Source of the DNA: Desulfovibrio sp.
Lineage (GTDB): Bacteria > Desulfobacterota > Desulfovibrionia > Desulfovibrionales > Desulfovibrionaceae
Assembly: GCA_030145055.1 (NCBI GenBank)
Contig: JAQYWK010000003.1
Span: 372,001-436,000, forward strand
DNA: 64,000 nt
Direction: 5' to 3'
Shown here: piece after piece, positions 36,021-54,501 of the stretch
Numbering within the stretch: position 1 is the stretch's first letter
Layout of the letters: each line of letters begins with the position of its first letter
Program-made: the position numbers and the translations under genes
Notes under the pieces: model-generated
What the model saw: only the letters and a program-made list of their open reading frames with translations
Told to the model about the DNA's origin: nothing
Databases searched by the model: none

Positions 36021-36848
36021 CTAAACAACTGCCCCTTGAGATCCCGTGTAAGCTTCGTTATTCTGTTCCTGATATGCGCGCATAGCCATTCTTGTTAGCG
36101 CAGACTGACCGTCAACTTCGCCGGCCCGACCCATGGGACCTTGGCCGCCTTGTCCTTGCCCCTCAGTTTGTCCGAAAACGCCAGCGAGACTCTGGTCACC
36201 ATCTGTGAAAGCCTGTCGCAATTCTTCAGTTGAAACTACTCCATCCTGATTCAAATCATACTCATCATATTCAACTTCGCTGTCGCTATCTGACTCCGAA
36301 GAAGATGAAGACGGGGTAGAACTTGCGGCGGCGCTAGAAACTTCTGCCCCTGGCGGTGGTGGAGGTGGTCCCATCGCGGACTCCAACTCTTCACCTGAAA
36401 TATTGCCATCACTATCGCCATCTAACACATTGAACAGATCTTCGGATAGGCCACTTTCTTCCATGCTAATCTGACTGTCACCGTCTAAATCAAGCTCATC
36501 CATGAAAGAATCAAGCATGTCACCCTGTCCGCCCTTGCCTCCGCCACCCTGCATCATAGTGCTTAGCTCGCCCATCCGCGCCTTTTCTTCGTGGCGCCTT
36601 TCCATATCGGCTAAGACTTCTTCTTCTGAAACCTGACTATCACCATCTGTATCAACAGAGGCAAACATGTCTTCGCTCATACTTGATTCTTCAAGACTGA
36701 GCAGGCCGTTTCCGTCTCCATCTTTCTTTTCAAATATCGAGCTTACTAAATCTTCCTTGCTCCCGCCCTCACGCGCCTCGCGCATTTTGGACATCATATC
36801 GGGAGACATGCCCGAATTCATGTAACTACCAACACCGAAAATACTCAT
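36021..36848 (-). CDS. EF-hand calcium-binding protein A (tandem pair)
   Basis: The 275-residue acidic protein carries five EF-hand-type loops: DGDGNGLLSLEE, DTDGDSQVSEEE, DLDGDSQISMEE, DGDSDGNISGEE and DLNQDGVVSTEE, at roughly residues 43, 66, 123, 145 and 200. Between the fourth and fifth is a low-complexity stretch (PPPPPPG then Ser/Ala/Asp-rich). No signal peptide is visible at the N-terminus. The start at 36848 is chosen because AAGGAGG lies six bases before it, while the ATG at 36854 abuts it. Its homologue is immediately upstream on the same strand. It likely binds Ca2+; the target is unknown. Confidence 0.75.
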   Translation of the reverse strand: MSIFGVGSYMNSGMSPDMMSKMREAREGGSKEDLVSSIFEKKDGDGNGLLSLEESSMSEDMFASVDTDGDSQVSEEEVLADMERRHEEKARMGELSTMMQGGGGKGGQGDMLDSFMDELDLDGDSQISMEESGLSEDLFNVLDGDSDGNISGEELESAMGPPPPPPGAEVSSAAASSTPSSSSSESDSDSEVEYDEYDLNQDGVVSTEELRQAFTDGDQSLAGVFGQTEGQGQGGQGPMGRAGEVDGQSALTRMAMRAYQEQNNEAYTGSQGAVV

Positions 36849-36985
36849 GACCATCCTCCTTGCTCAAATTTACCAATAAAAAGGTGGCAAAAAGTGCCAC
36901 ATTTATTCCTGATTAAAATATGAGCAAGATGCGTCCCACATTATATTAAGAAAAATTAAGAACTCTAAAGACGATAATATAAAAA

Positions 36986-37077: not shown

Positions 37078-37887
37078 TTATATCATTGCACTCTGCGAAC
37101 CGATATATTGTTCACTCATCTGGTTATGATATCCTCGCATAGCCCTTTGAGTCATTGCGGATTGCTGACCTCCAAAATCATTTAATGAAGGTCCATTCTC
37201 TCTCATTTCTCTAACGCGTGCGCCATTGGCACTGAAAAGCCCTTCAACACTCTGACTACCCTGACCCGCAGCTTCTTTAATCTCGGCTTCCGAGACAATT
37301 CCATCCTTATTCAGGTCATATTCGTCAAACTCTTCTTCTTTATCAGAGCTCCCTTTTCCACCACCTGATCCAGAAGGGTTTTGCAAACCGGCAATCTCGC
37401 CCATAGATTCTTTAAGTTCTTGACCTGAAATTTTTCCGTCACCATCTACGTCAAGAACCTGAAAAAGTTCTTCGCTTAGACCGCTTTCTTCTAGGTTAAT
37501 CAAACTATCGTCATCGAGATCAAGAGCATCAACGAGAGACTCAGCGTTAGTGTCATGATTTGCATACTGCTTTAGGCCTTTACCACCGCCCTGCATCATC
37601 ATGCTGAGTTCGCCCATAAACGCCTTTTCAGCATGCCGCTTTGCCACATCACCTAAAACGTCTTCTGAATTCCGACCATCACCATCTGTATCAACAGAGG
37701 CAAACATGTCTTTGCCCATGCCGGCTTCTTTAATACGGGCTAATCCGTTTTTTTCTCCATCTTTCTTTCCAGATATCGCACCGACAAAACCGTCCCGATC
37801 CCCGCCTTCGCGCGACTCACGCATTTTAAACATCATATATGGGGACATCCCCGAATTTGTATAACTGTCAACACCAGAAATACTCAT
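37078..37887 (-). CDS. EF-hand calcium-binding protein B (tandem pair)
   Basis: The 269-residue product is a paralogue of the neighbouring EF-hand protein: both begin MSI-GV-SY-NSGMSP and end in QxxYxGSQxA-(V/I). Intact loops are DTDGDGRNSEDV-like, DVDGDGKISGQE and DLNKDGIVSEAE. The first loop (DGEKNGLARIKE) and the third (DLDDDSLINLEE) have lost or changed ligands. This suggests that B has diverged towards fewer calcium sites. AAGGAGG precedes the ATG at 37887. The pair arose by duplication; the retained ends suggest a shared N- and C-terminal function, perhaps binding a partner. Confidence 0.75.
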   Translation of the reverse strand: MSISGVDSYTNSGMSPYMMFKMRESREGGDRDGFVGAISGKKDGEKNGLARIKEAGMGKDMFASVDTDGDGRNSEDVLGDVAKRHAEKAFMGELSMMMQGGGKGLKQYANHDTNAESLVDALDLDDDSLINLEESGLSEELFQVLDVDGDGKISGQELKESMGEIAGLQNPSGSGGGKGSSDKEEEFDEYDLNKDGIVSEAEIKEAAGQGSQSVEGLFSANGARVREMRENGPSLNDFGGQQSAMTQRAMRGYHNQMSEQYIGSQSAMI

Positions 37888-41248: not shown

Positions 41249-41249
41249 C

Positions 41250-41279
41250 TTGACGAGATCGCAAATAATAACATACCTA
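41250..41279 (+). promoter_or_regulatory. hmcA: Candidate hmc promoter
   Basis: TTGACG (41250-41255) is a good -35, but the -10 (TACCTA, 41274-41279, spacer 18) is weak. This fits a regulated promoter needing an activator or relief by a repressor. Confidence 0.45.
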
Positions 41280-41286
41280 ACGAGCA

Positions 41287-41340
41287 GGTAAAATTACCCA
41301 TCAAGTCGGGAGGTATTAATACCTCCTACATAGATAGGTA
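41287..41340. promoter_or_regulatory. Three GGTA motifs at 25-base period (candidate hmc operator)
   Basis: GGTAAAATTACC (41287-41298) and GGTATTAATACC (41312-41323, inside the 18-base perfect palindrome 41309-41326) both have GGTA-N4-TACC symmetry. A third GGTA half-site starts at 41337. The three start positions are exactly 25 bases apart, just downstream of the candidate promoter. Confidence 0.5.
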
Positions 41341-41502: not shown

Positions 41503-43167
41503 ATGGCAAACGGAAAAAAATTATTGCGATTGTCCAGTATTCTACTCGTCCTTGCTGGGGTGCTCGGCTTCCATATGGAAGCTATGAGCATGGTAGGAAC
41601 CCCGCAGGCCGAAGGCAAACAGCGTCCTGATCTTATTATGATCGACGATATTGCTGCTCAGGGAAAACTGGAATTGCCCGCAGTCGTGTTTTTGCACGAT
41701 GCACACACCAAGGCGGTAGCAGAACAGGGTAAAGACTGTACTGCATGTCACCAAAAAAACAAGGATGTCACTTCACTCAAATTCATGAGATATGAAGACG
41801 GCACTCCAGACGAACTCAAGGAAATTTATCACAACGGCTGTATCAGCTGTCACGTGAAGGATGCCGCTGCAGGCAAGAAAACCGGCCCTCAGGTCGGCGA
41901 ATGTCGCAGTTGTCACCAAGCTGACCCTGAGTACAAAGCGGAACGCGCTAAAGCGAGCATGGATAACACCTTGCATTTCCGTCATTGGGACTCAAAAATC
42001 ATCAAGAATGATGCAGGTCAGGAAACAAACTGTGGAAGCTGTCACCACGAATACAATGAGCAGAGCAAAAAGCTCGTATACGTGAAAGGACAAGAAGAAA
42101 GCTGTACTGTTTGCCACACCGCCAAACCTGAAGGTGATGTCAAACTGAACACTTCTGAAGCTTTCCACGGCCAGTGTGTAACCTGTCACATGGAATTAGC
42201 AACAGCCAAAGCCAAGAAATTCGGCCCAGTACAGTGTGCCGGATGTCATGGCCTTGCTGAAGCAGCAGACATTAAAGCTGACGACGCTCAGTTGCTGAAA
42301 AAGATAGGCGGAGTTTTACCTCGTCTACCTAGAAAACAGCCTGATGCTGTCCTTCTGACTGCTCCGGCTCCAAAAGATGCATCCGCCAAGACTGAAGTCA
42401 AAGGCAAAATGTATCCGGTAGCTTTCAATCACAAAGCTCACGAAAATAACACAGAATCCTGTGGATCTTGTCACCACCAGACTCTTAAAAAATCCTGCTC
42501 CGAATGTCACACCGCGCAGGGTTCTAAAGAAGGTGCTTACATTACTCTCGATAAAGCAATGCATAACCCAGACAGCGCACAGAGCTGTGTAGGTTGTCAT
42601 GCTCTTAAACAGAAAGATCCTAACTGTGCCGGCTGTCATGAATTGATGGCTAAAAAGACCATTCAGTCAGAAGCGACTTGCGCTGTCTGTCATGAAGTAC
42701 CTCAAAATGATACTGACCCAGCAACTCTAGAAGCCTCCGCCAAGGCAGATGTTGCAGCAGCTCTTATCATTGAGAGACCTACTTCCCCGACAATGCTTGA
42801 TACTGCTGACATTCCTGAATTCGTAAACATTGATGTAATGTCCAACGAATACAAGGCTAGCAAGCTTCCTCACCGTAAGATTGTCCTCACTTTAGTTGAG
42901 AACATGAAAGGCAACTCCTTAGCTAATACGTTCCACAGCACACCGTTGACTGTCTGTGCAAGCTGTCACCACAACAGCCCAGCATCTAAGACTCCTCCAA
43001 CTTGTGCAAGCTGTCACGCCAACGCGTCACAGAAGACCAAAGACGGACGTCCAGCACTTAAGGCAGCCTATCACGGCCAGTGTATGACATGTCATGAAAG
43101 CATGGAACTTAAGAAGCCTGTTTCCACTGACTGTTCATCCTGTCACGAACCGAAAAAGAACGGCTAG
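41503..43167 (+). CDS. hmcA: Sixteen-heme periplasmic cytochrome c HmcA
   Basis: The 554-residue protein has a Sec signal (KKLLRLSSILLVLAGVLGFHMEAMS) and exactly sixteen CxxCH motifs, from CTACH at about residue 79 to CSSCH near the C-terminus. This number identifies it as HmcA, the high-molecular-weight cytochrome of Desulfovibrio. It accepts electrons from periplasmic hydrogenases and formate dehydrogenase through cytochrome c3 and passes them to the membrane-bound HmcB-F. A gap without hemes separates motifs 7 and 8 (residues about 250-315). The 620-bp upstream region has palindromes and a leader structure. AGGGGAA precedes the ATG. It is the first gene of hmcABCDEF. Confidence 0.96.
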   Translation: MANGKKLLRLSSILLVLAGVLGFHMEAMSMVGTPQAEGKQRPDLIMIDDIAAQGKLELPAVVFLHDAHTKAVAEQGKDCTACHQKNKDVTSLKFMRYEDGTPDELKEIYHNGCISCHVKDAAAGKKTGPQVGECRSCHQADPEYKAERAKASMDNTLHFRHWDSKIIKNDAGQETNCGSCHHEYNEQSKKLVYVKGQEESCTVCHTAKPEGDVKLNTSEAFHGQCVTCHMELATAKAKKFGPVQCAGCHGLAEAADIKADDAQLLKKIGGVLPRLPRKQPDAVLLTAPAPKDASAKTEVKGKMYPVAFNHKAHENNTESCGSCHHQTLKKSCSECHTAQGSKEGAYITLDKAMHNPDSAQSCVGCHALKQKDPNCAGCHELMAKKTIQSEATCAVCHEVPQNDTDPATLEASAKADVAAALIIERPTSPTMLDTADIPEFVNIDVMSNEYKASKLPHRKIVLTLVENMKGNSLANTFHSTPLTVCASCHHNSPASKTPPTCASCHANASQKTKDGRPALKAAYHGQCMTCHESMELKKPVSTDCSSCHEPKKNG

Positions 43168-43186
43168 CCCGAAGGAGAACTGATAA

Positions 43187-44242
43187 ATGTTACGCAGAAC
43201 ATTCCTCGGAATGCTAGGCACAGCCTGTGTGGGAGCCTCAATTCCTGGTGTAGCTTCGGCTAGTAAGGAATTTACCGGTCACCCCGGCAGCAACGGCGTT
43301 CTTTTTGACGCCACGCGCTGCATAGGTTGTCGCAAATGTGAAGAAGCCTGTAATAAAGTCAACGACTTGCCCGTTCCGGACAAGAAGTATGATGACTTAA
43401 CAGTGCTCGACACTAAACGCAGAACCGATGCCAAGACTCTTACTGTAGTCAATAAATACAAGGCCGATAAAGGCCCTCTATTCCGCAAGTCGCAGTGTAA
43501 CCACTGTTTGGAGCCAGCATGTGCTTCAGCTTGTTTCGTAAAAGCATTCAAAAAACTGCCTAACGGCGCTGTCGTCTATGACGAATCAGTCTGTGTAGGT
43601 TGTCGCTACTGTATGGTAGCATGCCCATTCTCAATACCAGCTTACGAATACGACGAGCCTCTTACTCCTAGAGTAATGAAGTGTACCATGTGTGCGCCTC
43701 GCTTAGCTGAAGGCAAATTGCCTGGCTGTGTTGAGTCTTGTCCTAAAGAAGCCCTAGTTTACGGCGAAAGAGATGAACTCATCAAAATCGCTCGCAAACG
43801 TATTGAACGCAATCCCGACCGTTACGTTGATCACCTTTACGGTGAGAAAGAAATGGGCGGAACCAGCTGGCTTTACCTCTCTGGAGTACCTTTCACTGAG
43901 ATCGGAATGCGCGAAGATTTGGGAACCAAATCTGCACCTGAACTCACTGCAGGCGCACTAGCTTCTGTACCTATGGTTGCCGGCCTCTGGCCTGTGCTTC
44001 TCGGTGGTATCTACGCTATCAGCAAACGCAAAGACAAAGTTGCTAATGAAGAGAAGAAAGAAGCGGTTGCTAACGCTATTGCCAAGGCAAGCGAACAGGC
44101 AGAAAAGACCCTTTCTGAAGCCCTTTCAAAGGCTGATGTCGCTAACAAGCGTCAGATCGAAGTAGAGGTCAAGAAAGCTGTTGAAGACGCTCTGACTCCT
44201 AAAGAAGAAGAGTCTGACGAAAACAGCGAGGGGGAATCCTAA
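43187..44242 (+). CDS. hmcB: Hmc complex iron-sulfur protein HmcB
   Basis: The 351-residue protein begins with a twin-arginine-like signal ([24 protein letters not shown]), which fits a periplasmic ferredoxin domain. Cys clusters for four [4Fe-4S] centers are visible: [13 protein letters not shown] near residue 45, [14 protein letters not shown] near 103, [13 protein letters not shown] near 137, and [24 protein letters not shown] near 168. A membrane segment ([19 protein letters not shown], about 263-282) anchors it. A long charged tail ([18 protein letters not shown] and [10 protein letters not shown]) looks coiled-coil. Its last base pair overlaps the hmcC start (TAATG). Confidence 0.94.
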
Positions 44243-45414
44243 TGTCGAATCCAGGCAATCCAGGATCTAAATCAAACCTCACCGCATTCAATGTAATTGC
44301 AGGCGCAATCATTGTTATGGGTCTGGTCATTACTGTTCTCAGATTCACTAAAGGCCTCGGCGCTGTCACCAATCTTGATGACAACAACCCTTGGGGACTT
44401 TGGATCGGATTTGACTTGCTCTGTGGTGTTGCACTTGCAGCTGGTGGTTACACAACCTCCGCAGCATGTTACATCTTCGGACTTAAACGCTTTCACTCCG
44501 CAGTCCGTCCGGCAATTCTAACCGCCTTTCTTGGATACGCTCTGGTTGTATTTGCTCTGCAGTATGACCTTGGTCGTCCTTGGCGTTTGCCGTACCCAAT
44601 CTTTGTCCAGCAGGGAACAACATCACTGCTCTTCGAAGTTGGTTTATGCGTAATGTTATATTTGACAGTACTGTTTATCGAGTTCACTCCAGCCATGTTC
44701 GAATGGCTAGGCATGAAGAAAATCAGATCCGTTGTAGTCAAATTGACTCTGGCTCTAACCATCTTCGGCGTAGTGCTCTCAACTCTGCATCAGTCCTCCT
44801 TGGGAGCACTGTACACAATCGCACCATCTAAGTTGCACCCATTATGGTACTCAACTTATCTGCCAGTGTTCTTCTTTGTGTCCAGTATCGCAGCAGGTCT
44901 TTCAATGGTAATCTTCGAAGGAACCCTTTCCCATAAGAAGCTGCACCGCATGATGGATGAGGAATACCTCAAACACCACGACGGAGTTGTTCTTGGATTC
45001 GGTAAAGCAGCATCTTTGGTGCTCTTCGGATACTTCGCCATTAAAATGATCGGACTGGCATATGCCAACAACTGGCATTACCTGACTTCAGGCTACGGCT
45101 TGTGGTTCATGGTAGAAATGCTCGGTTTTGTTGCATTGCCGTGTTTCCTCTACGCTGTCGGTGTACGTGAAAAGAATTTGGGCCTTATCAAGAAAGCAGC
45201 GATTATAACTGTTCTCGGTATCGTTCTTAACAGATTCAACGTTTCACTTGTCGCGTTTAACTACCACCTGCCTTCATCTGAAAGGTACTTCCCTACCATG
45301 ATGGAGATCGGAATCTCTGTCTTCGTAGTCACTCTCGGTGTGGTTATCTTCCGTTTCATTACCACTCGGATGCCTATTTTCCACGAGCATCCTGACTACA
45401 AGGGCGAACACTAG
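44242..45414 (+). CDS. hmcC: Hmc complex NrfD-like membrane protein HmcC
   Basis: The 390-residue product is an NrfD/PsrC-type integral membrane protein with ten hydrophobic segments. Conserved patterns include NPWGLWIGFDLLCGVALAAGGYTTSA and QYDLGRPWRLPYP in the N-terminal half and LPSSERYFPTMMEIGISVFVVTLGVV in the C-terminal half. Family members exchange electrons with quinones without carrying cofactors. It follows hmcB with a one-base overlap, so translation is coupled. It is the first of three membrane subunits. Confidence 0.94.
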   Translation: MSNPGNPGSKSNLTAFNVIAGAIIVMGLVITVLRFTKGLGAVTNLDDNNPWGLWIGFDLLCGVALAAGGYTTSAACYIFGLKRFHSAVRPAILTAFLGYALVVFALQYDLGRPWRLPYPIFVQQGTTSLLFEVGLCVMLYLTVLFIEFTPAMFEWLGMKKIRSVVVKLTLALTIFGVVLSTLHQSSLGALYTIAPSKLHPLWYSTYLPVFFFVSSIAAGLSMVIFEGTLSHKKLHRMMDEEYLKHHDGVVLGFGKAASLVLFGYFAIKMIGLAYANNWHYLTSGYGLWFMVEMLGFVALPCFLYAVGVREKNLGLIKKAAIITVLGIVLNRFNVSLVAFNYHLPSSERYFPTMMEIGISVFVVTLGVVIFRFITTRMPIFHEHPDYKGEH

Positions 45415-45434
45415 TCGCTGTAAGGAGAAATCAA

Positions 45435-45566
45435 ATGGAAATATTCAGCCTACAAGAGTACTACACTTTCACCAAAGGTATCGTGTACTTGCTCATGGGC
45501 GGGGCTCTTATCGGAGTTACTCTGTTCTGGCAGTTCCTGATGGGTGGCAACAACAACGACGATTAA
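45435..45566 (+). CDS. hmcD: Hmc complex small membrane subunit HmcD
   Basis: A 43-residue gene too short for usual ORF lists: MEIFSLQEYYTFTKGIVYLL at the start, then a single membrane helix (GIVYLLMGGALIGVTLFWQFLM, about 15-36) and a polar Asn/Asp tail. AAGGAG precedes the ATG. Its position between hmcC and hmcE and its size (the Desulfovibrio vulgaris HmcD has about 48 residues) identify it. It has no cofactor motif and probably has a structural role. Confidence 0.85.
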   Translation: MEIFSLQEYYTFTKGIVYLLMGGALIGVTLFWQFLMGGNNNDD

Positions 45567-45604
45567 ACTAGCAATAGTCTGATCGATACTTGAGGAGATA
45601 AAAC

Positions 45605-46282
45605 ATGTACGATTTTCTAACAGGGCCTATGCTCTGGCTGACATTCGCTGTCAGCTTCGGTGGCCTGTTGGTGCGCATCGTGCTCTACATAAAGGGCCTC
45701 AACCAGCAGCTTGACCGTGTCGCTTACCGCGCTCACATGGGTTATGGGTTGAAAGGTGCGTTTAATTCAATCATAAGCTTCCTGAACCCTGTAGGGGCAC
45801 GCCTCTGGAGGATTCGTCCAGGATTCGCACTGATGTTCTTTGTATTCCATATTGGGATCGTGATCACACCGATTTTCCTGATCGCCCATAATGTAATGCT
45901 ACAAGAGAACCTCGGTTTCAGCCTGCCAGCTCTACCAACATGTGTAGCTGACATCCTGACTTGGGCAGCAGTCGTAGCCGGTCTATTATTGACATTGCGC
46001 CGCGTTGCTTTCCCTGAAGTAAGAATTCTAACTACTGGCTATGATTACCTGATGATGGTGATAACTCTAGCTCCTTTCGTAACTGGCCTTTTGGCTAGAT
46101 ACGGAGTCGGTGACTATCAGTTCTGGCTTACTGCCCACATCATCACTGGTGAAATTTGGTTGTTGAGCCTGCCCTTCACTAAGCTCAGCCACGTTGTTCT
46201 GTTTTTCATGTCCCGCGCACAGCTCGGAATGGATTACGGTATCAAACGCGGTGGCATGAAGGGTTCCTCGATGTCCTGGTAA
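45605..46282 (+). CDS. hmcE: Hmc complex membrane subunit HmcE
   Basis: The 225-residue product has five or six hydrophobic helices and several His residues placed in helices (FVFHIGIVITPIF, LTAHIITGEIW, FTKLSHVVLFFM). It resembles the NarI/DsrM-type cytochrome b-like subunits and can bind heme b. GAGGAG precedes the ATG. It lies 38 bases after hmcD and 39 before hmcF in the same operon. Confidence 0.92.
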   Translation: MYDFLTGPMLWLTFAVSFGGLLVRIVLYIKGLNQQLDRVAYRAHMGYGLKGAFNSIISFLNPVGARLWRIRPGFALMFFVFHIGIVITPIFLIAHNVMLQENLGFSLPALPTCVADILTWAAVVAGLLLTLRRVAFPEVRILTTGYDYLMMVITLAPFVTGLLARYGVGDYQFWLTAHIITGEIWLLSLPFTKLSHVVLFFMSRAQLGMDYGIKRGGMKGSSMSW

Positions 46283-46321
46283 CAGGAACCGATTCATTCA
46301 GACTCATAGAGGAGAAGCACA

Positions 46322-47716
46322 ATGCCTGAAGGAATATTATGTAATAAGACCCCGATTAAAACAGATGAGCAGCTTAAGCTGGTTCTTTCTGATAGTCGCG
46401 GTACTAAATACTACGCAGAGATGTTAGAGTTGGAAGTCGATTCCGACGCTCTCTGGGCGCTAATACAGAAGACAATGAAATCCAGGACCAAAACCTGGTT
46501 TGAAATCTGTGCCCATTGCGGACTCTGCGCCAATAGTTGTTTTCTATATCAAGTTAATGGTCGGATTCCTCAGCAGGTTCCGTCTTACAAGATTCAGTCA
46601 ACACTTGGCGAAATTGTTAAAAAGAAAGGTAAAGTTACCAACGAATTCATGCGTCACTGCATGGACGTAGCATGGTCACAATGTACATGTTGTAACCGTT
46701 GCGGCATGTACTGCCCGCACGGAATCGACATGGGTGTCATGTTCGGTTACTTACGCGGCCTTCTTTACTCTCAGGGATTCGTTCCTTGGGAACTTAAAAT
46801 CGGTTCCGGTATGCATCGCGTTTATCGCGCGCAGATGGACGTTACCACTGAAGATTGGGTTGAAACCTGTGAGTGGATGGCGGAAGAAACCGAAGAAGAA
46901 TGGCCAGGTCTTGAAATTCCCGTGGACAAGCAGAATGCAGACATCATGTATACCTGCAATGCCCGCGAACCTAAACATTACCCTGAAGATGTAGCTGAAG
47001 CAGCTATTCTCTTCCACGTAGCCGGTGAAAACTGGACAGTACCTTCAGAGGGTTGGGAACAAACTTCCCTTTCCATGTTTGCTGGAGACTGGGAATGTTG
47101 TAAGGATAATGTACAGAACGTATACGATGCCATTGAACGCTTGAACCCTAAGCGCGCAACAGGCACCGAATGCGGACATGCACATCGTGCGACTGTAATC
47201 GAAGGACCATACTGGACAGGTCGTCCAGACGGTCTGCCTCCTGTTCCATACATTCATTATGTGGAATGGCTGGCTGAAGCACTTCGCACAGGCAAGCTCA
47301 AAATTGATCCTGCAAAAAGAATCAAAGAGCCTGTCACATTACAGGATTCCTGTAACTACGTGCGTAACCAGGGACTTAAAGATGTAACTAGAGAAATCAT
47401 CAGTTATATAGTTGAGCCTGGATACTTCGTTGAAATGTCGCCGACCAAAGAACACAACTACTGCTGTGGCGGTGGTGGCGGATTCAACGGAATCGGCATG
47501 TACCGCGAACAGCGTAACGTTGCTCTACGTACAAAGATGGATCAGATTCTCGACACCGGCTGTAAGCTGGTTATTGCTCCTTGTCATAACTGCTGGGATG
47601 CCATTCGAGATCTTGAGGAAGAGTATGAGATCGGAATTCGCTGGTCCTTCCTTAAGCCCCTGATCATTGGTATGTTGGATGTGCCTGAGCATATGTTGCC
47701 AAAGGACGAAGAGTAA
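46322..47716 (+). CDS. hmcF: Hmc complex HdrD-like iron-sulfur subunit HmcF
   Basis: The 464-residue cytoplasmic subunit has two N-terminal ferredoxin clusters ([12 protein letters not shown] near residue 63 and [14 protein letters not shown] near 121) followed by CCG-type (HdrD) Cys domains. The first has a CNAREPKHY element and ECCKDN; the second has [10 protein letters not shown] and the hallmark [12 protein letters not shown] near residue 380. Such domains hold a noncubane [4Fe-4S] or similar center. It is thought to deliver electrons to cytoplasmic sulfate reduction partners. It ends the hmc structural operon; a Usp gene follows at 47775. Confidence 0.95.
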
Positions 47717-47774: not shown

Positions 47775-48668
47775 ATGTTTAAGAAAATTATATTGGCCAC
47801 GACAGGTTCCCCGGCAAGCTTCGGCGCTGCCCGTGTAGCTTTCGATATGGCTAAAAGATACGGTTCGGAAGTAACGATCTTCCATGTTCTGGGAGTGCCT
47901 ACAAAGGCTTTCTCTCACGTAGTAAATGATGTCCGTACTGGTGAAGAAGTTGAAGTGGATGCAGATTATCTAGCTTGGGTTGAAGAAGAACTCAAGACCA
48001 CTTACGCTAAACAATTCGCTGGTGCTGAAAATGCCAAAATAGTGCTCGCAACCGGAATGCCGCCACGCGAAATTCTGCGCGAAGCACGTAGTCAGGATGC
48101 TGACCTTATCGTTATGGGCGCAAGCTCAGGCGATAGCGCGAAGTACCAGAGAGGATATCCTGGAAGCACACTACAGAAAGTAGCCAAGGCAGCTCGCTGC
48201 CCTGTTCTTACTGTACACCGTGAGTCCGCATCCTACTGGGGCGGCTTCTCCAACATCCTATTTGGAACGGACTTCTCTAAGCAGGCAACAAGCGCATTTA
48301 AATTTGCTCTTAACACTGCCCGCGAACTAGACTGCGACCTGACCATTTTCCACGCGCTGGATATCAGTGGTAAGGTTCTTGATCAGGATCAGATTGAAGA
48401 ACAACTTATTGTCGCCCGTAAACGTATCCGCGCAACTTACGTTCCGCAGATGGGTGATTTTAAGAACTTCGATATCGAAGTCTGGGAAGGAGCTCCTTAC
48501 GTGGAAATCGTCAAGCTTGCTCGTGAAAAGCAAGTGGACCTGATCGTTATGGCCCATCACGCACACGAACTTGATGCAGAAAAAGCAAAAATCGGTTCCA
48601 CGGTGGAACAGGTTATTGTTAGAGCTAACTGCCCGGTAGTCAGCGTCAGCAAGCCGGACAAAGTTTAA
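47775..48668 (+). CDS. Tandem universal stress protein
   Basis: The 297-residue product contains two UspA domains in one chain: residues 1-147 ending ADLIVMGASSGDSAKYQRGYPGSTLQKVAKAARCPVLTV, and 148-297 with VDLIVMAHHAHELDAEKAKIGSTVEQVIVRANCPVVSV. Both have the G-2x-G-9x-G(S/T)-like nucleotide-binding end (GxxxxxxxxxGST). The true start is the ATG at 47775 (MFKKIILATTGSP), with GAGGTG upstream; a longer frame overlapping hmcF is rejected. It sits 58 bases after hmcF with no terminator between, so it is probably co-transcribed with hmc and may sense the energy state. Confidence 0.88.
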   Translation: MFKKIILATTGSPASFGAARVAFDMAKRYGSEVTIFHVLGVPTKAFSHVVNDVRTGEEVEVDADYLAWVEEELKTTYAKQFAGAENAKIVLATGMPPREILREARSQDADLIVMGASSGDSAKYQRGYPGSTLQKVAKAARCPVLTVHRESASYWGGFSNILFGTDFSKQATSAFKFALNTARELDCDLTIFHALDISGKVLDQDQIEEQLIVARKRIRATYVPQMGDFKNFDIEVWEGAPYVEIVKLAREKQVDLIVMAHHAHELDAEKAKIGSTVEQVIVRANCPVVSVSKPDKV

Positions 48669-48756: not shown

Positions 48757-49110
48757 ATGTCTAAGAAGATTTTAATCGTCGATGACGACCAGGAAATTCG
48801 TTCTTACTTGAGCGAACTATTCGGGGACAACGGATATGAAACCGTTACAGCTGAAGATGGTAAAATAGCTACTGAAGTTGCCGAAAAGGAAAATCCAGAT
48901 TTAATCACACTTGATCTGGAAATGCCGAACGAATGGGGCCCACGCTTCTACCGCAAGCTGTCCCAAAACGAAAAACTAAAAAGAACTCCTGTTATCGTAA
49001 TCAGTGGTCTTAATGCCAACCAGTATGCAATTCCTAAAGCGATTGCGACGCTGACTAAGCCATTTGATGCAGATCAATTAATCGCGATTGTTAAAGAAAC
49101 AATCGGCTAA
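48757..49110 (+). CDS. Receiver-only response regulator, Rrf1-like (first copy)
   Basis: The 117-residue protein is a receiver domain with no output domain: acidic pocket ILIVDDDQE, phosphoacceptor Asp in LITLDLEMP, Thr/Ser switch VIVISG, Lys in LTKPFD. After the phosphorylation site it reads NEWGPRFYRKLSQ, where most receivers have MDG, a group-specific variation. The start at 48757 has AGGAGG. It is the first of two such genes, 40% of whose residues vary, in the position of rrf1 downstream of the hmc operon of Desulfovibrio vulgaris. Homologous function (control of hmc) is likely but not proved. Confidence 0.82.
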   Translation: MSKKILIVDDDQEIRSYLSELFGDNGYETVTAEDGKIATEVAEKENPDLITLDLEMPNEWGPRFYRKLSQNEKLKRTPVIVISGLNANQYAIPKAIATLTKPFDADQLIAIVKETIG

Positions 49111-49249: not shown

Positions 49250-49609
49250 ATGCCCAAAAAAATAATGGTCGTTGATGACGATCCAGACATCGTCGATTAC
49301 TTAGTTAACGTTTTCGAAGACCACGGATACCTTACTTGCCGAGCTTCAGATGGCATTACAGCATACGATGTAGCCATGGCTGAAAATCCGGATTTAATTA
49401 CTCTTGATCTCGAGATGCCTCATGAATGGGGTCCTCGTTTTTATCGCAGATTAACGCTAGAAGAACAATTTTCAGACATACCTGTTATCGTCATTAGCGG
49501 TTTATCGGGCATTCATCTGGCAATAAAACGAGCTGTTGCCACAATAAAAAAACCTTTTGACCCGACTGACGTTATCGAAATCGTCAGAAAGGCTCTCGGT
49601 GATGCTTAG
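49250..49609 (+). CDS. Receiver-only response regulator, Rrf1-like (second copy)
   Basis: The 119-residue product parallels the upstream gene: KIMVVDDDPDIVDYLVNVFEDHGY, phosphoacceptor in LITLDLEMPHEWGPRFYRRL, and KKPFDPTDVIEIVRKAL. It has the same EWGPRFYR signature, indicating a local duplication. CAGGTGAT precedes the ATG at 49250; the longer frame to 49169 has no ribosome site. It lies just before the REC-PAS-PAS kinase (26 bases), which may phosphorylate it. Confidence 0.82.
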   Translation: MPKKIMVVDDDPDIVDYLVNVFEDHGYLTCRASDGITAYDVAMAENPDLITLDLEMPHEWGPRFYRRLTLEEQFSDIPVIVISGLSGIHLAIKRAVATIKKPFDPTDVIEIVRKALGDA

Positions 49610-49635: not shown

Positions 49636-51549
49636 ATGGACAGCAAAAAACTAATTCTCGTAGATGACGAAGAAGGCATTAGACGCTTTCTCGGACTCAC
49701 ACTTGTAGATCTTGGATATACAGTTAAAACCGCCGAAAACGGTCAAGCTGCGCTAGAACTCCTTAAGACCTTCACCCCATCTATTATTCTCACTGACATA
49801 AAAATGCCAATGATGGACGGCATTGAGCTGCTTAAAACCGTTAAACTTCAATCCCCTGAAATTGAAGTCATCATGCTTACCGGACACGGGGACCTAGACC
49901 TCGCCATTGAATCTCTCAAATTTGATGCAGCTGACTTCATAACCAAACCAATTAACGACAAAGTACTTGAAATATCCTTGGAGCGTACGCTGGAAAAAAT
50001 CCAGATGAAAAGTAAGCTTCGTGAATATACCGTGAATCTTGAACGATTGGTTGATGAGAAAACTCAGCGCATAGTAGAACTTGAACGCCAAAACGCAGCG
50101 TGTCAGGTCATTGAGGGTTTAAGCGGAGCCCTTACAAGCGCTTCAAATGAAATGGAATCAGGATCAGGTCTTTTTAATGAACTCCCCTGCCTTGTATCCA
50201 TTCATAATAGGTATCTTGAAATTGTATCCGCGAACCAGCTGCTAAAAGATCGCCTCGGAGATGTTGTCGGGCTAAATAGCTTTGATATATACTCCGACCG
50301 CACTTCTGCTGGAAACGCCTGCCCAGTTCAAAAAACATTTGAGACAGGCAAAGGACAAAGAAGTAAAGAAACTTTCCTGACTAAAGACGGCGAAGAAATA
50401 CCAGTTACAGTATACACAGCTCCAATTGCCAATAAAGAAGGTGAAATTGAGCTTGTCCTTGATATTTCTGTAGATATGACAGAATTACAGCGCCTTAAAG
50501 ATGAATTGTTAACAACACAGCACAAGTTTGAGCGTCTTTTCGATGAATCCCCATGTTATATTTCGGTACAGAATAAAGATTTTACCATAGCTGAAGTTAA
50601 CCGCAGATTTAAAGAAGATTTCGAAGATATCACTGGTTCTCACTGCTATAAAACCTACAAGCGAAGTAATGAACCCTGCGTAGAATGCCCAGTCAAACTA
50701 ACTTTTGGCGACGGTGAATCACATCAGATGGAAACAGTGGTTACAACCAAAAAAGGCGAGCAAAAAAACGTTCTGGTCTGGTCTTCCCCCATACGTGATG
50801 CATATGGAAACATTAATCAGGTAATGGAAATGTCCACCGACATCACGGAAATCCGACGTTTACAGGATCACCTTACATCACTTGGGTTCATGCTCGGTTC
50901 CATGTCCCATGGTGTTAAGGGAATGCTGACAGCATTGGACGGAGGCATCTACAGACTTGAATCAGGACTACGTAAAAATGATCAGGATCGCATAGACTCA
51001 GCAACAAAAGCACTGAAAAGCACTGTAAACCGCGTTAAAAAGATGGTGCTGGATATTCTCTACTATGCCAAATCTCGTGAACTTGAGATGGAAACAGTCG
51101 ATGCCAGCAGCTTCCTTACCGATACAGCTTCACTCGTTGCTATCAAGGCTAAAAATGCGGGTGTAACTTTCATTCAGGATATCCCCGACAATCTCGGCCC
51201 GATCAAAATTGATTCCAGCGCGATGTCCGCTACGCTCGTGAACTTTCTTGAGAATGGTGTCGACGCTTGCGAAAATCCTATTGAACGCAAAGATTACTCT
51301 TTAAGCTTCTCAGCGGCACGGAGCGATAATAATCTTGTTATCAAGATCACCGACACAGGCATGGGCATGGACCAAGAGACTGCTAACAAGATCTTTACAT
51401 TGTTCTTTTCCTCAAAAGGGAAAAAGGGGACTGGCATTGGTCTTTTCATATCAAATCAAACCATTGAAAAACACAATGGGAAGATATTAGTAGATTCAGA
51501 ATTAGGTAAAGGAACCAGCTTCACAATCACTATACCCTGTAATATTTGA
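49636..51549 (+). CDS. REC-PAS-PAS histidine kinase
   Basis: The 637-residue cytoplasmic kinase begins with an intact receiver (LILVDDEEG, Asp in ILTDIKMPMMDG, KP at about residue 107), then a short coiled region (RLVDEKTQRIVELERQ), two PAS domains (about 165-285 and 295-410) and a kinase core. Its H-box is atypical: GSMSHGVKGMLTALDG instead of HELRxP. The ATPase domain has NFLENGVDACE, DTGMGMD and GTGIGLFIS. The second PAS holds a CxxC-type cluster (GSHCYKTYKRSNEPCVECPV). GGAGG precedes the ATG. It belongs to the hmc-downstream regulator block. Confidence 0.85.
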   Translation: MDSKKLILVDDEEGIRRFLGLTLVDLGYTVKTAENGQAALELLKTFTPSIILTDIKMPMMDGIELLKTVKLQSPEIEVIMLTGHGDLDLAIESLKFDAADFITKPINDKVLEISLERTLEKIQMKSKLREYTVNLERLVDEKTQRIVELERQNAACQVIEGLSGALTSASNEMESGSGLFNELPCLVSIHNRYLEIVSANQLLKDRLGDVVGLNSFDIYSDRTSAGNACPVQKTFETGKGQRSKETFLTKDGEEIPVTVYTAPIANKEGEIELVLDISVDMTELQRLKDELLTTQHKFERLFDESPCYISVQNKDFTIAEVNRRFKEDFEDITGSHCYKTYKRSNEPCVECPVKLTFGDGESHQMETVVTTKKGEQKNVLVWSSPIRDAYGNINQVMEMSTDITEIRRLQDHLTSLGFMLGSMSHGVKGMLTALDGGIYRLESGLRKNDQDRIDSATKALKSTVNRVKKMVLDILYYAKSRELEMETVDASSFLTDTASLVAIKAKNAGVTFIQDIPDNLGPIKIDSSAMSATLVNFLENGVDACENPIERKDYSLSFSAARSDNNLVIKITDTGMGMDQETANKIFTLFFSSKGKKGTGIGLFISNQTIEKHNGKILVDSELGKGTSFTITIPCNI

Positions 51550-51744: not shown

Positions 51745-52176
51745 ATGAAACTAACTACGCGAAGCAGATACGGTGCGCGGCTATTATTAGATATAGCCCT
51801 ACACTCCCAAAATGGCCCTGTTCCAAGCAAAGACTCGGCCAGACGCGAAAAAATTTCTCTTAAATACTTAGAAAAAATCCTAAAAAGGCTCAAAGAAGGC
51901 GGATTCATAAAAGGAAAACGTGGCCCCAATGGTGGCAATATTCTCCTTCTTAAGCCCGAAGATATATCAATTGGAGCCATTGCTCAGATTTTAGACGGCC
52001 AGGATAAAATTTTAGATTGTGTGGGAGATGAGACGGCCTGTCCACGTTCAGCGGTTTGTTTACGACGCTCTATATGGGACGATGCAAATCAGGCAATGTA
52101 CAAAATGCTCGACTCTTACTCTCTGGCAGACCTAATGAAAGACGCTTACCTCTGCCCTGCCGAAAGGATGGAATAG
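51745..52176 (+). CDS. rrf2: Rrf2-family iron-sulfur transcription regulator
   Basis: The 143-residue product is an Rrf2/IscR-type winged-helix protein: MKLTTRSRYGARLLLDIALH, SLKYLEKILKRLKEGGFIKGKRGPNGG (wing), then C92-x6-C99-x5-C105 (DCVGDETACPRSAVC), the spacing that holds an Fe-S cluster. Family knowledge: Rrf2 was first described downstream of hmc in Desulfovibrio vulgaris, where it represses that operon. The TATATTC region before the ATG has no strong ribosome site. It is followed 43 bases later by the heme-motif sensor kinase, so the two are probably one unit. Confidence 0.9.
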   Translation: MKLTTRSRYGARLLLDIALHSQNGPVPSKDSARREKISLKYLEKILKRLKEGGFIKGKRGPNGGNILLLKPEDISIGAIAQILDGQDKILDCVGDETACPRSAVCLRRSIWDDANQAMYKMLDSYSLADLMKDAYLCPAERME

Positions 52177-52218
52177 CACACCGGTTCACGGATCGGACAA
52201 CCTAAGGGAGGCCGTGTC

Positions 52219-54501
52219 GTGTTCAAGAGATTTAGCGAAAGTTTAATCATGAAAATGATTCTATCAGGAGGAATTATACTTCTCCTGAGTGTAATGTTCT
52301 GGACAAGCTTCAACGTGGTCTTTTTCAAAAAAAATGTCACAGAGAATGTGATGTCTGACATTGCGATGCTGTCAGACACTGTTCTACTCAGCCTCCACTA
52401 CGCCATGATGCTCGACTCGAAAGAGGACATCAAAGAAGATATCAACAACATCAGTAAGCAGCGTGAAATTAAAAGCATCCGCATATATAATAAAAAAGGG
52501 CGCATTGTTTTCTCCAACAAGCCTGAAGAAGTTAATGCTATTGTCGACTTAAAAACGCCCTCATGCTGGACCTGCCACCAATACGACCCGATTCCCGCGA
52601 CCATGAGTTTAGCGCAGCGCAGCCGAATGCGAGCAGTCGACGGAGAAAAATCCATAAGCATCATGACACCCATTACCAATTCCATGGGATGTGCACCCGG
52701 ACCTTGTCATATCCACTCTACCGACGAACGTCTTCTAGGTCTGTTAGAGATGGAAGTTTCTACAGAAAAGAAAAGCGCCATGATTCTCACATTTGAGCAA
52801 TCAAATATTACCATTGCCATGATTGTTTTTATTGCAACATTCGCAGCACTTTTCATTTACGCTTATAATTTTATTTTTAAACCTATTCGAAAATTGATTG
52901 CAGCGACTAAAGGCATCGGTGCAGGAAAAGAATTTGAAGTTATTGAACTTGATCAAACAGATGAAATTGGAGCCCTTTCAGATGCATTCAATATGATGGG
53001 GCGACAAGTTCAAGAAAAACACAACGAACTGCGCGAACAAAAAGAAGAATATCGCGATCTTTTTCATAATGTTCCATGCCTTGTAAGCGTCGTTGATCTC
53101 AACTTTAAGGTTATTCGTCATAACAAAGCTTACGAAGAACACTTCGGCAAACCTGCCGGAAGGCATTGCTACCAGATAAACAAAGACCGTGATCAAAAAT
53201 GTGTAGAATGCCCGGTTGAAAGAACTTTTTTCGATCTCACATCACACATGAGTGAGGAATCAGGTCTTTCTAAAAATGGAGATCCTATCCATTGGATTGT
53301 CTACACTTCACCTATCAAGAACCGCTCTGGCAAAATTATCGCAGCCATGGAAATGATGCTCGATATCACCCCACGTAAGAAACTTGAAGAGCGTCTGGCC
53401 ATTTCTGAGGAACGCTACCACGCCATATTTGACTCCATTCCCGGTGCAGTCTTTGTGCTTGATGCTAACACATTAGAGATTTTAAACTGCAATGATCATG
53501 TTGCCGAAATATACGGATATTCTTCTACTGAAATATTAGGTAAACCCTTCACTGAGCTATTTCGTGAAGATGAAAAATCTGATTACAGTCATCTTGTTAC
53601 AATCAAGAAAGAGATAGGCCCATGCACACAGCTAACTAAATTTAACAAACAATTATACGTGATGATGCGCATTTCTCCAGCTCAGTTTCTTGATAACAAG
53701 GCGCTGATTGTTACCTGCAGTGATGTCACTAAAAAGCTCGAAGCTGAACAGCAACTCATTCAGGCCAGCAAAATGACTACGCTTGGAGAGATGGCTTCCG
53801 GCGTTGCGCATGAACTGAATCAACCGCTCGCGATTTTAAAAACAATAAGCAATCTGCTCATGCGTAAAGTATCCCGCGGGCAAGTTGTAGATCCAGAAAT
53901 ATTAAACGAAATGGCTGAAGGAATTGATTCACACGTTGACCGTGCAAGTAAGATTATCGAGCATATGCGCGAATTCGGGCGCAAATCCGATCTGCGAACC
54001 ATGCCGGTACAGGTTAACGATGTGTTAACTCGTGGATTCGAATTCTTCAGTCAACAACTACGAGTTCGTAATATTGATGTTGTTTGGGATCTTGATGACA
54101 ATCTCCCTCTGATCATGGCTGACTCAAACCGACTTGAGCAAGTGGTTATCAACCTGCTAATCAATGCCAGAGATGCGATTGAAGATCATTGGGAAAAAAG
54201 TTGTCCCTTGTCAAAAGACAAGAAAGTTTACCTCACAACGTACCACACAAGAACAAGAGTAATTATAGATATTTGCGATACAGGGGGAGGTATACCTGAA
54301 ACCATCCAAGACAAGCTGTTCGATCCATTCTTCACAACCAAAGATGTGGGAAAAGGCACCGGACTGGGGCTATCCATATCATATGGTATAGTCCAGGATT
54401 ACAAAGGAACAATTCAAGCTTCATCAAAAGAAGGTGCAGGCGCCTGCTTCACAATTGCGTTCCCGCGTGAAGATATTGATGGAAAAAGTATTTCTGAGTA
54501 G
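52219..54501 (+). CDS. Sensor histidine kinase with diheme c-type periplasmic domain
   Basis: The 760-residue kinase has two membrane helices (residues about 13-34 and 198-222) enclosing a periplasmic domain that contains C116-W-T-C119-H120 and C158-x4-C163-H164 (CAPGPCH). The first is a standard c-type heme motif and the second the CX4CH form known from cytochrome c3. A HAMP domain follows (PIRKLIAATKGIGAGKEF), then a Cys-containing PAS (GRHCYQINKDRDQKCVECPV, about 310), a second PAS (about 390-500), and HisKA (MASGVAHELNQPLAI) with a full ATPase domain (DTGGGIPE, GKGTGLGLS). The start is GTG with GGGAGG upstream. It directly follows rrf2. Confidence 0.85.
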   Translation: MFKRFSESLIMKMILSGGIILLLSVMFWTSFNVVFFKKNVTENVMSDIAMLSDTVLLSLHYAMMLDSKEDIKEDINNISKQREIKSIRIYNKKGRIVFSNKPEEVNAIVDLKTPSCWTCHQYDPIPATMSLAQRSRMRAVDGEKSISIMTPITNSMGCAPGPCHIHSTDERLLGLLEMEVSTEKKSAMILTFEQSNITIAMIVFIATFAALFIYAYNFIFKPIRKLIAATKGIGAGKEFEVIELDQTDEIGALSDAFNMMGRQVQEKHNELREQKEEYRDLFHNVPCLVSVVDLNFKVIRHNKAYEEHFGKPAGRHCYQINKDRDQKCVECPVERTFFDLTSHMSEESGLSKNGDPIHWIVYTSPIKNRSGKIIAAMEMMLDITPRKKLEERLAISEERYHAIFDSIPGAVFVLDANTLEILNCNDHVAEIYGYSSTEILGKPFTELFREDEKSDYSHLVTIKKEIGPCTQLTKFNKQLYVMMRISPAQFLDNKALIVTCSDVTKKLEAEQQLIQASKMTTLGEMASGVAHELNQPLAILKTISNLLMRKVSRGQVVDPEILNEMAEGIDSHVDRASKIIEHMREFGRKSDLRTMPVQVNDVLTRGFEFFSQQLRVRNIDVVWDLDDNLPLIMADSNRLEQVVINLLINARDAIEDHWEKSCPLSKDKKVYLTTYHTRTRVIIDICDTGGGIPETIQDKLFDPFFTTKDVGKGTGLGLSISYGIVQDYKGTIQASSKEGAGACFTIAFPREDIDGKSISE

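Follow-up and report, generated by a model that had tools for sequence, protein, structure and literature searches.

Two c-type heme motifs in a histidine kinase encoded beside hmc and linked to electron-transfer complexes in Desulfovibrio and its relatives

The window analysed here, a stretch of 64,000 nucleotides from Desulfovibrio sp. (contig JAQYWK010000003.1, positions 372,001 to 436,000), carries an hmc operon and, downstream of it on the same strand, a series of genes with predicted regulatory functions including a histidine kinase gene. The features concerned are the following, with positions counted from the first letter of the window:

41249-41329, + strand: CTTGAC box and three dyads before hmcA, TACCTAACGAGCAGGTA (41274), GGTAAAATTACC (41287) and GGTATTAATACC (41312); candidate operator
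41503-47716, + strand: hmcA (41503-43167), hmcB (43187-44242), hmcC (44242-45414), hmcE (45605-46282) and hmcF (46322-47716)
47775-48668, + strand: universal stress protein, start taken at the Met before FKKIILATTG
48757-49110, + strand: receiver-only protein 1, DVU0259 family, start taken at the Met before SKKILIVDDD
49250-49609, + strand: receiver-only protein 2, DVU0259 family, start taken at the Met before KKIMVVDDD
49636-51549, + strand: receiver-PAS-PAS-HATPase protein, counterpart of the REC-HATPase protein beside many relatives of the kinase
51745-52176, + strand: Rrf2-family regulator with the cysteine pattern CVGDETACPRSAVC (PF02082 119 bits, TIGR00738 120 bits, above cut-off)
52219-54501, + strand: histidine kinase, 760 amino acids, GTG start with AGGGAGG just upstream; domain order from Pfam and a predicted model: periplasmic Cache-like domain with two heme motifs, HAMP, two PAS stretches, HisKA, HATPase_c
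52564-52578, + strand: heme motif 1, CWTCH, kinase residues 116-120
52690-52710, + strand: heme motif 2, CAPGPCH, residues 158-164, with His 166 (CHxH) to 52716
52873-53013, + strand: HAMP domain of the kinase, residues 219-265 (Pfam)

HmcA (683.5 bits), HmcB (547.1), HmcE (362.3) and HmcF (926.6) all score above their NCBIfam equivalog cut-offs; the scan covered these four genes, and hmcC was named from its position and its relatives. The roughly 190 bases between hmcC and hmcE (45415-45604) leave room where a small hmcD could lie. Elsewhere in the window, two adjoining genes on the reverse strand (36021-36854 and 37078-37887) code for similar acidic proteins in which EF-hand-like DxDxDG stretches were seen by eye.

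The kinase exceeds the Pfam cut-offs for both HisKA (38.6 bits) and HATPase_c (77.2 bits), and in the predicted model long helices at residues 9-65 and 183-234 flank its periplasmic domain. The open reading frame, Pfam and the model agree with an earlier sequence-only reading of this DNA, which placed a periplasmic domain with both motifs between two membrane helices and ahead of HAMP; the gap between rrf2 and the kinase gene, given there as 43 bases, is in fact 42 (52177-52218). A further cysteine pattern, HCY-x9-10-CVECPV, was seen by eye in the kinase (53167-53211, residues 317-331) and in the second PAS domain of the protein encoded at 49636-51549, and is possibly a second, cytoplasmic redox or metal site in these PAS domains.

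Residues 41-185 of the kinase hold exactly four cysteines, all of them inside the two motifs, and four histidines (60, 120, 164 and 166). The CX4CH spacing of motif 2 is a known heme form in cytochrome c3. Both motifs arose together at a frequency of 6e-5 in 100,000 shuffles of this segment, and conservation provides a stronger test. Of 58 related genomes, among them that of the window, 29 each contributed one sensor relative (E 2.3e-40 or better), and both motifs with H166 are present in 29 of 29, the window's own protein being one of them; motif 2 has an X4 spacing in 25 of these, X3 in two and X5 in two. Five weaker second copies (one each in G016, G020 and G025 and two in G030; L182, L183, L185-L187) likewise have two motifs. 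In G030 a stretch bearing the two-motif kinase is present twice, in opposite orientations (L182 and L183). Named genomes were scanned with a peptide pattern around LHYAMMLDSK, which holds no heme motif, and among the best 80 of 127 relatives found in this way all 80 loci have both motifs and CHxH, with X4 in motif 2 in 73 and X3 in seven. The motifs, on whose conservation in orthologues the sequence-only reading had staked its heme claim, are thus kept in both sets. Across the phylum, 69 of 198 genomes match the kinase at E <= 1e-20 and 57 reach E 1e-45; every one of 30 loci taken from the latter range (L137-L166) has two motifs. In an alignment of 76 sequences C116, C119, H120, N154, C158, C163, H164 and H166 are invariant and H60 nearly so, being Asn or Asp in some close relatives. 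Shuffling and conservation combined rule out a chance origin of the motifs. A CcmE gene is present as well.

The predicted model of the sensor domain is Cache-like (mean pLDDT 82.6), with motif 1 inside a short helix between strands 2 and 3 and motif 2 on the loop that leads into the last strand. Foldseek gave nine matches at E <= 0.001: WalK (crystal structures and an integrative model), two chemoreceptor models (both integrative), GSU0935 (3b42) and KinD. The search of structure databases, proposed earlier as a way of finding a known diheme sensor fold, points for the modelled domain to a single Cache fold like those of WalK and GSU0935, the latter being a one-heme sensor. A single-sequence search for a solved relative returned unrelated chains only (E 0.36 or worse), and a profile search gave mostly HAMP matches together with weak ones to 3b42 (E 0.036) and 3b47 (E 0.15). 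GSU0935 and GSU0582 (3b42 and 3b47; PF21563) share the Cache-like fold with the kinase, as judged by structure match; unlike it, they are chemotaxis proteins without the added CXXCH, described in the available part of their report as binding one heme (PMC3460858). PF21563 is matched, weakly as a profile, by 74 of 76 family members at E <= 0.01; the kinase itself reaches 18.9 bits against a cut-off of 27, which one close orthologue (G006) exceeds.

Two other groups of heme sensors invite comparison. GSU0591 and GSU0599 of Geobacter sulfurreducens and Adeh_2011 and Adeh_3383 of Anaeromyxobacter are on record as two-motif heme sensors and, to go by the available descriptions, are like the kinase periplasmic PAS/Cache-like sensors with two CX2-4CH motifs; they differ from it in that those descriptions offer neither proof of two bound hemes nor a function or a link to Hmc, Tmc or Hdr (PMC8396549, PMC3831638). 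The kinase has two CX2-4CH motifs in one periplasmic sensor domain and in this respect fits the GSU0591/GSU0599 type. A 2026 preprint describes, in its available part, the one-heme sCache_heme family (DUF3365/Tll0287, PF11845), whose single Cache domain has its heme motif in the loop preceding the last strand, and reports that a signalling-type member binds NO (PMC12889525). The kinase shares this arrangement according to the model and Foldseek, except that the family's single motif is CXXCH and the kinase has CX4CH in that loop. The terms diheme, two heme, second heme, multiheme and CX4CH are absent from the sCache_heme text (PMC12889525). Membership of DUF3365/sCache_heme by profile was rejected: the kinase has no PF11845 match at E <= 1 and is not among the six matches in its own genome at E <= 10. 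That genome does encode two PF11845 (sCache_heme) proteins over the cut-off and a one-motif (CYHCH) sensor (G000 C1:187768-188280, C7:156518-156985 and C1:910747-911466).

Hmc and Tmc are transmembrane complexes that exchange electrons with periplasmic cytochrome c3, according to the part of the source available (PMC4215793), and the kinase gene keeps company with both. In the 58 related genomes the kinase occurs together with an hmcA over the cut-off in 28, alone in one and not at all in 29, seven of which have hmcA and 22 neither gene (Fisher 1e-8, ancestry ignored). G008, the sole kinase-less genome among 17 of the genus, is likewise without hmcA. The two genes lie within 25 kb on the same strand in 24 of the 28 genomes, the kinase preceding hmcA in three cases and following it in 21; in the remaining four they are on different contigs or far apart.

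Among the named loci (best 80 of 127) 29 are fully flanked, and 24 of these have Hmc, Tmc-like or Hdr genes near the kinase, against 2 of 60 control kinases, while a REC-HATPase protein is near in 23 of 29 against 0 of 60, the Hdr and REC-HATPase reference sequences having been taken from the cases themselves and the Fisher tests ignoring ancestry. A complex was counted when an Hmc or Tmc-like gene, or at least two of HdrA, HdrB, HdrC and MvhD, lay within about 10 kb; by this rule the other five fully flanked loci have none. The controls were 20 kinases from the window's own genome and 40 from the D. alkanivorans chromosome, drawn from the top of the kinase lists. Over all 80 named loci (best 80 of 127) a complex is found at 55 and a REC-HATPase protein also at 55; the rule for the latter needs one long match and consequently misses proteins of the window's type, with PAS domains (e.g. 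L042-L045).

Complexes adjoin the kinase in several different gene orders. Five loci that belong to other genomes of the phylum have an NtrC-type regulator beside the two-motif kinase; three of them (L301-L303) adjoin genes for a multiheme cytochrome and a cytochrome b, and two (L304 and L308) adjoin HmcB/HmcC-like genes. The same five loci encode proteins of about 280 amino acids that have the same sensor domain without a kinase and are paired with the two-motif kinase and the NtrC-type regulator:

L301, 3858-4682: kinase-less sensor-domain protein
L302, 11394-12224: kinase-less sensor-domain protein
L303, 11819-12655: kinase-less sensor-domain protein
L304, 4006-4866: kinase-less sensor-domain protein
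L308, 5179-6024: kinase-less sensor-domain protein

With conserved heme motifs and a gene placed beside electron-moving complexes in many relatives, the kinase probably measures the electron load of the cell's periplasmic carriers and adjusts the complexes. From this gene context we consider with good confidence that it regulates the neighbouring complex. As to what it senses, the redox state of the cytochrome pool appears reasonably likely, in preference to a gas. As an alternative, the two-heme domain would respond to a gas, of which NO is the likeliest, at a heme with an open position and would tune electron transfer during nitrosative or oxidative stress, with Rrf2, a relative of the NO sensor NsrR, as a second input. 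The signalling-type one-heme sCache_heme member is indeed described, in the available part of the preprint, as binding NO tightly with slow release and without the behaviour of an O2 sensor (PMC12889525), and the Rrf2 of the window matches the NsrR model, if weakly and below the cut-off. The window protein, however, has no PF11845 match, the neighbours at most fully flanked loci are electron-transfer complexes, and an added second heme with an extra invariant histidine would better fit closed, electron-carrying hemes than an open gas site. Gas sensing seems to us unlikely.

Control of hmc itself, as proposed in the sequence-only reading, gains from the linkage to hmcA in 24 of 28 genomes, from the association with Tmc-like, Hdr and other complexes and from the fusions described below, all of which suggest a regulatory role; it does not stand as a general rule, since seven of 35 genomes with hmcA are without the kinase. 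The region before hmcA offers a possible site of action. Of 17 congeners 16 have hmcA, and all 16 carry the CTTGAC box and the first dyad before it; the middle dyad occurs in a loose form in all 16 and exactly in five, and GGTATTAATACC in 15. A relative from another genus (L325) has only a diverged version of the array. In the organism's own genome the exact pair GGTAN4TACC-N8..16-GGTAN4TACC is found at a single place, before hmcA. As judged by eye, L176 has a related long palindrome before hmcA, nothing closely like the array is seen in L174 or L175, and the repeats at the Tmc/fusion loci L184, L189 and L214 are different ones, GTATG/CATAC. Rrf2 is the obvious candidate for binder of the hmcA dyads. 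The stretch upstream of rrf2 contains a conserved promoter-like element without the hmc dyads, and control of rrf2 by the same dyads as hmc was rejected on that ground.

The part that had been suggested for the nearby receiver-only proteins is plausible, and both can now be assigned to the DVU0259 family of receivers. Genes for a UspA and a CheY-like protein adjoin hmcF in D. hydrothermalis and change together with hmcA-F under pressure, according to the available part of the report (PMC4162548). A closer tie between receiver and regulator comes from 150 genomes of the order, in which at least five fusions joining an Rrf2 domain to a DVU0259-type receiver, full-length and free of stops, were found, in two genera of two families; only matches spanning the whole query without a stop were counted, and two of them were examined with Pfam:

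L189, 5280-6221, - strand: Rrf2-receiver fusion
L184, 14500-15489, + strand: Rrf2-receiver fusion
L214, 11201-12154, + strand: Rrf2-receiver fusion
L215, 11347-12345, + strand: Rrf2-receiver fusion
L216, 9573-10568, - strand: Rrf2-receiver fusion

All five are divergent from a Tmc operon bearing the two-motif kinase (in L216 the TmcB frame is in two pieces), so a joint action of receiver and Rrf2 at loci of this kind is likely. Among the 80 named loci (best 80 of 127) Rrf2 was detected at 10, each of which belongs to the 14 Hmc-linked loci, and it was found at no Hdr-linked locus; a route through Rrf2 therefore cannot be general. At hmc itself, we give the route through receiver and Rrf2 slightly better than even prospects.

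A different division of labour has to be weighed here, in which the REC-HATPase protein is the main output of the kinase and leads to targets outside the adjoining complex, and Rrf2 alone regulates hmc as an Fe-S or iron sensor. The REC-HATPase protein is the most constant neighbour of the kinase, Rrf2 is present at few of the named loci and rrf2 has its own upstream element, as described above; yet the gene orders in which complexes adjoin the kinase are several, and the fusions tie the receiver to Rrf2 at kinase-bearing Tmc loci. We regard it as quite improbable.

The origin of the two motifs may be read from one-heme relatives. In a profile comparison against ten one-motif sensors, of which nine belong to the same genus, the whole domain was aligned with 98.9% probability, a value aided by the membrane and HAMP parts common to both sides; the only CXXCH of those ten sits in the motif 2 loop. 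Its first Cys aligns to C158 and its His to H166, so that the register of motif 2 is shifted by two. Among 74 sensor rows compared, 56 two-motif and 18 one-motif, CXXCH is at the motif 2 place in 17 of the 18 one-motif rows and CX4CH in the remaining one (L281); 55 of the 56 two-motif rows have an X3-X5 motif 2, and L298 has CXXCH at both places. CHxH is found in 51 of the 56. The 74 rows are not independent: four of the 56 come from loci that entered the set twice, L137 is the window's own locus, L182 and L183 belong to a single genome as two copies, and several rows duplicate loci already in the 29-relative set. Given the CXXCH of one-heme relatives in the motif 2 loop, motif 2 looks like the older heme site and motif 1 like an addition that goes with the widening of motif 2; L298 and L281 are possible evolutionary intermediates.

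Conservation of both motifs, together with the CXXCH of one-heme relatives in the motif 2 loop, supports the two heme sites proposed earlier, and the sensor domain very probably binds two hemes. That heme sits on motif 1 only and that motif 2 (CX3-5CHxH) is a thiol/disulfide switch or metal site is very doubtful, for although a spacing from X3 to X5 inside one family is unusual for a heme site and the one-heme CXXCH His aligns to H166 rather than H164 in two alignments, one-motif rows nearly all place their CXXCH in this loop, L298 has it at both places and CX4CH is a heme form known from cytochrome c3.

Motifs, conservation, fold similarity, domain order, linkage, fusions and conserved dyads were obtained by computation, and the mechanism that would best account for them is as follows. 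The periplasmic single-Cache domain would bind two c-type hemes, at an older site (CX4CHxH) in the loop ahead of the last strand and at an added one (CXXCH) between strands 2 and 3. These hemes would swap electrons with the periplasmic pool of c-type cytochromes, and their oxidation state would alter the domain and then, via HAMP, the kinase. Phosphate would pass from the kinase to the nearby receivers, namely the REC-PAS-PAS-HATPase protein and the DVU0259-family receivers. Where the complex is Hmc or Tmc, receiver and Rrf2 would act on its promoter, and the amount of complex would follow the electron load of the cytochrome pool. The steps that we infer are the attachment of heme, the redox nature of the signal, the path taken by phosphate, the binding of the dyads by Rrf2 and the direction of the response. 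Taken as a whole, the explanation of a two-heme redox sensor setting the Hmc level through receivers and Rrf2 has, in our estimate, an even chance of being correct.

Rrf1 and Rrf2, encoded beside hmc in D. vulgaris, affect hmc expression (PMC10924467, PMC13344952). As far as the available parts of these reports go, the loci are alike in having receiver and Rrf2 proteins beside hmc; the window differs from that account by two receivers, a REC-PAS-PAS-HATPase protein and the two-heme-motif kinase, and no kinase for Rrf1 is named in those parts. In the open literature, surveyed mostly by title and abstract, we recognised no study tying a two-heme kinase to Hmc, Tmc or Hdr. The type of sensor is not new, two-motif heme sensors having already been noted in Geobacter and Anaeromyxobacter; our findings add to it the linkage of the sensor and its output module.

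More tentatively, a module widespread in Desulfobacterota can be pictured, although we would put its chances below even. A two-heme Cache kinase would read the cytochrome pool and drive DVU0259-type receivers with Rrf2 at Hmc and Tmc, fused in some genomes, so that periplasmic heme and cytoplasmic Fe-S signals are combined at one promoter; elsewhere REC-HATPase or NtrC-type partners would serve Hdr-type and Cbc-like complexes. The second heme would have come as an added CXXCH, with the old site widening to CX3-5CHxH at the same time, so that electrons would have a short path within the sensor domain. For the regulation of hmc by Rrf1 and Rrf2, the locus and its relatives offer candidates for the kinase and the operator as well as a naturally occurring Rrf2-receiver fusion, and thereby make the question directly testable. 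Our analysis also points to a way in which sulfate reducers and their relatives could adjust the amounts of their electron-transfer complexes by the periplasmic redox state.
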